Assembly (NCBI RefSeq): GCF_036345255.1
Contig: NZ_CP107783.1
Span: 10,099,001 to 10,163,000 of the forward strand
Direction: 5' to 3'
Origin: Streptomyces sp. NBC_00569
GTDB lineage: Bacteria; Actinomycetota; Actinomycetes; Streptomycetales; Streptomycetaceae
Length of the DNA: 64,000 nt
In this document: positions 25,486 through 27,503 of the stretch, one piece after another
Numbering within the stretch: position 1 is the first letter of the stretch
Layout: each line of letters starts with the position of its first letter
The notes under the pieces: model-generated
What the model saw: only the letters and a program-made list of their open reading frames with translations
Databases searched by the model: none
Told to the model about the DNA's origin: nothing
Made by a program: the position numbers and the translations under genes

Positions 25486-25749
25486 CGGAGTCCTACTAGA
25501 CACAAACGGAGAGCAGCCGATCAACACTCACCGGGCTGCTTAACCAGAACTGCAACCATGCCCCACACCTCCCTGACCTCGCCTGCCGAGTAACTCAAAC
25601 AGTCACTAAACTTGGTCTTTAACGTCCGTCGTCGAATGACGGGTCGAACTTGATCACTCGGTTCGGTAACTGGCGTACGCGGAAGCGGCCTTCGGCTGAA
25701 CATGTGCTCCGCCCAAGGAACACACACGTCCAGCACGAAGGCCGTGAGA
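25486..25749. other. Intergenic stretch between two transposase remnants
   Basis: This AT-richer stretch of about 260 bases holds no gene. It probably contains the terminal sequences of the flanking transposase remnants. No clear inverted repeat pair could be assigned. Confidence 0.3.
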
Positions 25750-26077
25750 ATGAGTCTGCTGCATCACGACGCCCGGTCGGAGGCATTGGCCCAACTGTCA
25801 TGCTTCCGGGGCGAGTTCTACTCCTGCCTGACCGCCCGTTCGGACGCGTTGTTCGAGCTGGCTGATGCCGTTCTGTGCGGCGACGGGCCGGTGAGGTCAC
25901 TGGCCGAGCTGTCGCTGGTCGGCGAACACCGCCGCGGACATGGAGGGCTTTACGCGGCGGTGGCCCGTGGACGCATCGATGCCGGCCGACTGCGGCGGGC
26001 ACTGGCCGAAGTGCCACTGCCGCGGGCTGCTGACGGCCGGCTGGTCCTGGCCATCGATGTCACCTGCTGGCTGCGGC
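25750..26077 (+). pseudogene. DDE transposase (NF041680-like group), N-terminal fragment
   Basis: MSLLHHDARSEALAQLSCFR, GEFYSCLTARSDALFELADA, VRSLAELSLVGEHRRGHGGL and ADGRLVLAIDVTCWLRP match the beginning of a common Streptomyces transposase of about 450 residues. The first catalytic Asp lies in AIDVTCW. The match ends at about 26077, where the opposite-strand SUKH-4 gene begins mid-sequence. The remainder of the element is deleted. Confidence 0.7.
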
Positions 26078-26079
26078 CC

Positions 26080-26495
26080 CCAAGCTCCTGGCGGAGCGCC
26101 GCGAACTTGGTCAGTGCGTAGGTGAGGGATTCGACGTCGCGGTGAATCGGCGTGTAGACCAACTCGTCTTCTCCGTCGCCCAGCGCGTAGATCATCCCGG
26201 TGTCCGGGGCGAGCGCGAGAGTGGTGTCGGCGAAGAGGCCCAGCACGAGCCAGTCGTGGCACTCCTTGGGGACTGTGCCCCGATTGCTGTACCACTGGGC
26301 GACGTTGATGGAGTCGGTTGCGCTGAGGCTGGCCTTGGACATGAACCACTCGGTGTCAGGAAGCCCGACGCTGCTCAAGAGGAGCGCGGTTCGGTCGTTC
26401 ATCCGGCTGTGCATTGCGTTACAGCGGGGGAAGAAGACGACACCTGACAAGCCGAACACGGTGCGTACCTCGTCCGGTGTCACGGCGAAGTTCAT
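26080..26495 (-). pseudogene. SUKH-4-family immunity protein, C-terminally truncated
   Basis: About 138 residues remain: MNFAVTPDEVRTVFGLSGVV, SVGLPDTEWFMSKASLSATD, NRGTVPKECHDWLVLGLFAD, GDGEDELVYTPIHRDVESLT, YALTKFAALRQELG. SUKH-4 proteins are immunity factors of polymorphic toxin systems and usually continue for tens more residues. Here the frame runs into the transposase fragment at about 26078. No toxin gene is present nearby. It may be a residual orphan immunity gene. Confidence 0.65.
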
Positions 26496-26626
26496 GCTAA
26501 GCCTTTGCGTTGCTGGGCGATGGCGTGTGATCCATAGTGCCTCTGTGCTCGACCTCAGGCCGCTACCTCACCGACCGCCCGTCTCCAACTCCACCGACCA
26601 CGCCACCCCCCGGGGCCGTCGGGAAC

Positions 26627-26715
26627 GGACCATCCCCGCAGACGCAGGGGCGACTTGGAGCCGTCGATCGCACGGATCGAGAACTCCGGACCATCCCTGC
26701 GAGCCCGCGGGGACA
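26627..26715 (-). CRISPR. Relic CRISPR array: two degenerate repeats and one 33-nt spacer, type I-E-like
   Basis: Repeat A (26627-26654) begins GGACCATCCCCGC and ends CAGGGGCGAC. Repeat B (26688-26715) begins GGACCATCCCTGC and ends CGCGGGGACA. Each contains the short CCCCGC...GCGGGG-type stem of Streptomyces type I-E repeats, with substitutions. The start-to-start distance is exactly 61 bases, the type I-E period, leaving a 33-nt spacer at 26655-26687. By comparison with known repeats (GTC.CCCCGC...GCGGGGATGGTCC) the transcript would read on the minus strand. No cas genes are in the window. Confidence 0.7.
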
Positions 26716-26725
26716 TGCCCACCGG

Positions 26726-26941
26726 TCAGACGTCCTCGACTCCCAGCATCTGTACGGCCTTGCGGGCCTGGTAGAAGTCCTCGTCGGACACCTGCGGGTC
26801 GTCCTCCGTGTCGTGGAGCCAGTCCGCCAGGTCCGCGACGGACCACGTCTCGAACTCCTCGGGCACGTCGAGGGTGGTCGTCCTGCGCAGGTGCGTGGCG
26901 ACAGCAGCGTCCCGGACGCTACGCGTGCTCACCTCGGTCAT
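26726..26941 (-). CDS. Small hypothetical protein
   Basis: The 71-residue acidic protein reads MTEVSTRSVRDAAVATHLRR, TTTLDVPEEFETWSVADLAD, WLHDTEDDPQVSDEDFYQAR and ends KAVQMLGVEDV. It is predicted helical and cytoplasmic. The family is not recognised. AAAGG lies upstream of both the ATG at 26941 and an in-frame GTG at 26950. It sits at the presumed leader side of the relic CRISPR array, which may be coincidence. Confidence 0.6.
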   Translation of the reverse strand: MTEVSTRSVRDAAVATHLRRTTTLDVPEEFETWSVADLADWLHDTEDDPQVSDEDFYQARKAVQMLGVEDV

Positions 26942-27118
26942 GTTCCGCACCGCCTTTAGGTGTCATCGGGGATCGGACAGGCGACCTTGCCAGACAAAAT
27001 CCGTACTGTCCAAAACGGCTGCGCGAGGCTGAAACGGGCCTGGCAGGCATACGACCAGCCTGGCTACTCCCCGCTGTACGGGTCCTTCGAGACCGACCAG
27101 GACCCGGGCGCCAGGGCT

Positions 27119-27471
27119 GCGGATACACCGATCCGGGCGATCGCCCGGCATCTGGGCATCTCGAAGAACACGGTGAAGCGGGCACCGGCCAGTGACCGGC
27201 CGCCGAAGTACGAGCGGCCGGCCAGGGCTCGGCGGTCGACGCGGTCGAGGTGCAGATCCGTGAGCTGCTGCGGGAGACCCCGACGATGCCCGCCACGGTG
27301 ATCGCGGAGCGGATCGGGTGGGAACGCGGGCTGACGGTCCTCAGGGAACGAGTGCGAGAACTGCGTCCCGCCTACGTTCCGGTCGATCCGGTCTCGCGCA
27401 CGAGCTATCAGCCGGGCGAGCTGGCCCAGTGCGACCTGTGGTTTCCCGAGGCGGACATCCCGCTCGGCTAA
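27119..27471 (+). pseudogene. IS21-family transposase (IstA), frameshifted 5' fragment
   Basis: The first frame has IRAIARHLGISKNTVKRAPA then SDRPPKYERPARA. After a shift near 27230 the next gives VQIRELLRETPTMPATVIAE, RIGWERGLTVLRERVRELRP and GELAQCDLWFPEADIPLG, then a stop. This is the HTH and the start of the IstA integrase domain, with the first Asp in QCDLWFP. The remainder is absent. Confidence 0.75.
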
Positions 27472-27503
27472 CTGGCTCTAACAAAAGCTGTTGATCATGT
27501 GAC

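Follow-up and report, generated by a model that had tools for sequence, protein, structure and literature searches.

A two-repeat array fragment, very probably of CRISPR type I-E, with a spacer matching a phage tape measure gene in Streptomyces sp. NBC_00569

In actinomycetes, type I-E repeats share a conserved core, CC(T)CCGCNNNNGCGGG(A)G, and in S. avermitilis the acquisition motif AAG lay beside all protospacers except four; the final G of this motif is taken over as the repeat's last base (PMC4762764). As described there, the S. avermitilis system has cas genes, a leader and long arrays, and its activity was shown (PMC4762764). Across the genus, a 2018 study cited in PMC12231136 found that, of 70 Streptomyces genomes, 46 had arrays and 26 had cas genes, and that 99.5% of 2104 spacers were without a phage or plasmid match. 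Isolated arrays have been viewed either as remnants or as served from afar (PMC5294841). In the Streptomyces isolates QF2, DF, and SFW, many two-repeat, one-spacer CRISPRs were found scattered, with spacer-phage matches of 14–18 identical nt, at least one of them in a tape measure gene (PMC8782336). In kind, therefore, neither mini-arrays scattered over a chromosome nor spacers directed at tape measure genes are new (PMC8782336; PMC5294841; PMC12231136).

The locus described here lies in a window (the whole stretch of DNA that was analysed, 64,000 nucleotides) comprising bases 10,099,001–10,163,000 of the one-contig genome of Streptomyces sp. NBC_00569, which has 10,324,489 bases; mirrored copies at both ends, together with the phages and plasmids that its arrays resemble, suggest a linear Streptomyces chromosome. 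On the minus strand of the window, at 26626–26715, is a two-repeat, one-spacer array fragment with 29-nt repeats, a 32-nt spacer and a period of 61, in which the sequence CGGACCATCCC(C/T)GC occurs in two copies starting at 26626 and 26687, 61 bases apart. An earlier, sequence-only reading had proposed a relic two-repeat type I-E array at this place. Given the period, the presence of the repeat family elsewhere in the genome and an exact phage match, we hold it very likely that 26626–26715 is a genuine type I-E CRISPR array fragment, most likely the non-functional fossil of a phage encounter. The 61-base period of that reading stands, and its 28-nt repeats and 33-nt spacer give way to repeats of 29 nt, each 28-mer being joined by the base preceding it, and a spacer of 32 nt (26655–26686, minus strand). 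The far repeat, R2 (26626–26654, minus strand), is near-intact, with a stem and a 4-nt loop, and matches the repeat consensus at 27 of 29 positions; in minus-strand reading its sequence is GTCGCCCCTGCGTCTGCGGGGATGGTCCG, which carries the variant CCCCTGCG. A crRNA from this locus would be ~61 nt long and would begin with the handle GATGGTCCG or its shorter, 8-nt form. The gene-side repeat, R1 (26687–26715, minus strand), is a chimera, whose crRNA-5′ 15–18 bases are the native flank of a neighbouring 74-aa gene and whose remainder is CRISPR repeat; between the two 28-mers, 17 of 28 bases are identical.

R2 and the spacer agree with the actinomycete core, the AAG motif and the last-G rule, and the array belongs to the same 29-nt repeat class as that of S. 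avermitilis (PMC4762764). Unlike the system described in that source, the array in the window has two repeats, a different repeat sequence, and no cas gene that was found. It resembles the orphan or isolated arrays portrayed in PMC5294841 and PMC12231136 in having no nearby cas genes and in being a possible remnant, and differs from what those accounts describe in its exact protospacer and in the chimera of repeat and gene flank. Similarly, two-repeat arrays across the chromosome and the tape measure similarity of some spacers recall QF2, DF, and SFW, whereas the spacer match is 33/33 here and 14–18 nt there (PMC8782336).

The repeat consensus was read from other arrays in this genome. The repeat at 26627 departs from it at 2 of 28 positions, compared with a best of 8–10 mismatches in a background of ten random sequences (first-order, as long as the window), scanned on one strand. 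At 26688 the count is 9 mismatches, a chance-level value when taken alone (9 is also reached at six other sites in the window); this repeat is distinguished by its 14-base handle side, identical at 13 of 14 positions, and by the exact period. R2 has the form of a type I-E repeat (28–29 nt, short GC stem, 4-nt loop) and the chimeric R1 has it only partly; spacer length and period are those of type I-E (~32 nt and ~61). The comparison with a type I-E consensus proposed in the sequence-only reading therefore gave a match, not the repeats no better than random hairpins that would have spoken against it. An Rfam search of 26000–27500 gave 0 matches.

With as many as 3 mismatches allowed, the full repeat occurs at 14 places in the whole genome and its reversed control at 0. 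The handle pattern GGACCATCCCNGC occurs at 22 places, against 4 for its reversed control, with 16 of the 22 within arrays and 6 isolated. Including the array in the window, the genome holds eight distinct mini-arrays with at least two recognisable repeats. The seven others, near 89.7, 91.4, 118.0, 131.7, 134.5, 1804.8, and 10092.4 kb, belong to the same repeat family and do away with the idea that the array in the window is the last trace of an immunity island; three of the seven (89.7, 91.4, and 118.0 kb) are duplicated at the opposite chromosome end. Perfect-stem repeat patterns returned 0 sites in this genome, and R2 returned 0 in a genome contig collection from which this genome or very near ones may be excluded. 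Among plasmids, the array region matched 12 records, chiefly other Streptomyces arrays. For the other mini-arrays, 5 of 13 spacers were searched (three in phages and four seeds in viral contigs, two spacers being in both), and none of these five had a convincing phage match: the three phage searches gave E 0.9 or worse, the spacer of the 10092-kb array matching actinophages only (33 records, E 0.9–3 among the matches listed), and the four seeds gave one viral-contig match, at 26/32 and without AAG.

G205 (L053), which belongs to the same genus, has one array in which this consensus, with the CCCCTGCG variant of R2 among its forms, gives 28 repeat matches; the array is followed by cas6e, cas5e, and cas7e, whose proteins are over NCBIfam cut-offs. 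The family repeat is thus found with type I-E cas genes. The comparison covers the repeats, of which the array in the window has two. The family arrays of G205 (L053:11062-14526) and of the S. virginiae plasmid NZ_CP108865.1 (L154:16664-20143) are both situated close to the 3′ end of a ~1155-aa gene, which is annotated as LysM on the plasmid, where it adjoins a tad-type pilus cluster, and has a LysM match under cut-off in G205. Elsewhere, one contig (G135:C222; L061 and L062) bears two long arrays in opposite orientation with repeats of the GTCG(C/A)CCCCGCACCCGCGGGGATGGTCC type.

The spacer, together with the G that precedes it, is matched at 33 of 33 positions in the viral contig L090 (IMG/VR), in a tape measure gene and beside AAG. 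Identity between L090 and the window reaches to the edge of the repeat in one direction and runs a single base past the spacer in the other, boundaries that fit a spacer. A PF10145 (phage minor tail) match of the L090 protein spans the site, and tape measure is the name given to 15 of the protein's 21 matches in PHROG; the top-ranking one, PHROG 971, is named endolysin. A pattern made of AAG and the first part of the spacer, with one base free, found 61 IMG/VR contigs and its reversed control 0; L090 has 0 mismatches over 33, five contigs have 2, and the others 3–9. Some of these contigs are near copies of one another, so the 61 are not independent cases. The longest frame contains KEFSI in 56 of the 61, a different frame being longest in the other five. 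A second, independent pattern, built on the middle and distal portions of the spacer, had L090 as its only match. When AAG was omitted from the pattern, 36 contigs were found, with AAG upstream in 26 and AAA in 10. Since AAG is the lysine codon of a conserved protein motif, motif and match are not independent.

Within the genus, a search of 392 genomes for the spacer at up to 3 mismatches gave two sites, the array itself and one in G314, the latter with 3 mismatches and also beside AAG, the conserved lysine codon. The G314 site (G314:C33:159917-159949; L050) lies in a tape measure-like open frame of 710 aa that reads KEFSIRAIDGS. Against a phage collection the spacer matched 26 records, individually weak (best E 0.09). 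The best 8 of the 26 lie in tape measure genes of VWB, SF1, and SF3, twice each, and of Parvaparticeps and Gingerbug, with 6–8 mismatches over 33 and E 0.09–1, and the next 12 of the best 20 fall in assorted genes and are either shorter or less strong. The genes of Parvaparticeps and Gingerbug are annotated as tape measure; that of VWB and SF1/SF3 is labelled endolysin or hypothetical protein, is near major tail protein genes and, in SF1/SF3, directly adjoins tail assembly chaperones. The genes called endolysin in the RefSeq records of VWB, SF1, and SF3 (L042, L043, L044) thus appear to be tape measure genes, as all share the KEFSIRA motif with annotated tape measure proteins and those of SF1 and SF3 have chaperone neighbours. 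Plasmid searches with E up to 10 returned 16 records, none convincing (best E 0.3), and when one base of the spacer was left free, 0 matches were obtained in the genome contig collection, where this genome and very near ones may be missing. Of the phage, plasmid and actinobacterial sequences that the sequence-only reading had proposed to search, those covered here gave one exact counterpart of the spacer, in the viral contig L090.

On the crRNA-5′ side of the array no leader was found; that side joins directly the flank of a small gene (26726–26950, minus strand) encoding 74 aa, or 71 aa from ATG, which lies just upstream in the same orientation and whose product has no Pfam match over cut-off. 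Among 295 genomes searched, this gene is present in G161 (98% identity) and G059 (93%), in both cases without the array, and neither genome contains the spacer within 3 mismatches. Similarity of G161 and G059 to the window ends inside R1, and in G161 a 12-bp palindrome, perfect and with a 4-nt loop, follows the gene. Compared along all 29 bases, R1 differs from the G161 flank at 9 positions, from the CRISPR consensus also at 9, and from a chimera of the two at 3; when random 29-mers of the window replaced the flank in the chimera, 0 of 20,000 were equally good. A breakpoint scan placed the best-supported junction at 26697–26701 (minus strand), with four equally best positions, and both R1 and R2 still form a hairpin. 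The difference between the repeats, which had been read as old decay, is hence mainly a junction, as R1 is a chimera with native gene flank. An intact spacer, still 33/33 identical to a phage gene, also sits uneasily with a very old relic. The two sister loci, the kind of evidence that the sequence-only reading had proposed to seek, lack the array, and in neither was the region seen as ordinary coding sequence. The junction is visible in R1 itself, and recombination would be the route by which it arose. A 48-base fragment of the end of the 74-aa gene, 96% identical, lies at 63.8 kb (G000:C1:63786-63833; L049:1787-1834), with a mirror copy at the opposite end; it also ends in the palindrome, ~10–14 bases earlier, and continues into other sequence. 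These two cases suggest that the palindrome may be a point of breakage and joining.

On its far side, the array is followed by a stretch (26536–26625) with no further repeat and then by a truncated SUKH-4 immunity gene (26072–26495, minus strand; PF14435, residues 5–141, profile 1–138 of 179), of which G253 has a longer relative. Alignments of the SUKH-4 gene to 11 other genomes and to one second copy in this genome all end at or before 26535; the second sequence is 76% identical to the broken gene (G000:C1:2209267-2209687). A DDE_5 transposase fragment (PF13546, profile positions 1–90 of 272) lies at 25702–26118 on the plus strand. A broken immunity gene in an IS-rich zone had been noted here, and the SUKH-4 gene without its end and the transposase debris nearby agree with this. 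The SUKH-4 gene gives no evidence for a CRISPR island, its Pfam name referring to toxin immunity, which is of a different kind.

Models of four type I-E families, Cas1, Cas6e, Cas7e, and Cas8e, each had 0 matches in the whole genome; for these four, the absence of cas genes stated in the sequence-only reading held. Cas6e was matched in 25 of 61 related genomes, so that the model works in relatives, and the Cas1 control search was positive in 9 of 14 named genomes. Ten proteins near the other mini-arrays of this genome, chosen by size and codon use, included no Cas protein. Cas genes could be on an unassembled plasmid. With no Cas6e and Cascade, the fragment would be neither processed nor used, and is thus most likely non-functional.

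Several other explanations can be set against the array fragment. That two GC-rich hairpins resemble a CRISPR by accident would suit the low agreement between the repeats and the chance-level score of the repeat at 26688 taken alone; this has next to no probability, as the full repeat occurs at 14 places against 0 for the control, the protospacer in L090 is exact and has AAG, and the same repeat adjoins type I-E cas genes in G205, results by which chance is ruled out. It is just as barely credible that the supposed spacer is a leftover piece of tape measure gene from a prophage, lying amid gene debris; the region is full of gene fragments, but the identity with L090 stops where that of a spacer should, which contradicts this origin. 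Integration of a spacer by Cas1-Cas2 off target, straight into the hairpin behind a gene, would account for the position of the element exactly at the hairpin behind the 74-aa gene and would be expected to duplicate the target, leaving two flank-like repeats, whereas R2 is CRISPR consensus at 27/29 and R1 alone is flank-derived; we dismiss it as extremely improbable.

Two further proposals concern a present role of the fragment. A mini-array that is still usable, through read-through transcription from the 74-aa gene and a type I-E Cascade acting in trans, for example from an incoming plasmid, is in keeping with the shared strand of array and gene with no T-run terminator between them, the hairpins of both repeats, the intact seed and spacer, and the occurrence of Cas6e in related genomes, but the genome has no matches to Cas6e, Cas7e, Cas8e, or Cas1, the leader is absent and R1 is altered, and we consider it very improbable. 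It is unlikely, to a somewhat lesser degree, that the hairpins were kept as the end signal of the 74-aa gene, terminating transcription or stabilising the mRNA in place of a palindrome like that of G161. The junction does sit in the hairpin behind this gene, and the 95-nt element has a folding z of −4.89 (0 of 200 shuffles as good), compared with −1.76 to 0.77 for six other repeat-spacer-repeat units. Against this, the unusual folding is partly due to an inverted repeat inside the spacer, which is a phage coding sequence, there is no T-run, and the arrangement is not conserved in a second genome. Promoter and terminator signals in Streptomyces often differ from the sigma-70 and T-run consensus, and a scan that used these consensus sequences, which may not suit this genus, found 0 of each.

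For the fossil fragment, the following origin can be proposed. In an ancestor with type I-E cas genes, Cas1-Cas2 would have captured a 32-bp piece of the tape measure gene of a tailed phage beside AAG and stored it between two repeats, as spacer, motif and spacing suggest. Later, the leader and the remaining array may have been lost in a rearrangement of the chromosome arm, which would also have joined one repeat, at a point inside its hairpin, to the sequence downstream of the 74-aa gene, itself able to form a hairpin. The cas genes tested would since have been lost, and the fragment would remain as a non-functional record. More speculatively, and with a small probability, hairpins of CRISPR repeats may recombine with hairpins behind ordinary genes and so scatter one-spacer fragments along the arms; here the fragment would have replaced the downstream hairpin of a co-oriented gene, with a seed that still matches a conserved tape measure motif perfectly, and could thus be both a gene end and a dormant memory, reusable by a plasmid-borne type I-E Cascade. 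The locus shows that an array fragment can seem decayed when it has in fact been cut and joined. With almost all Streptomyces spacers unmatched in the survey reported in PMC12231136, a relic spacer that has both a perfect match and a motif is valuable as evidence that a phage was once met; it also points to a conserved part of the tape measure gene, at which one spacer would be able to hit many viral contigs.
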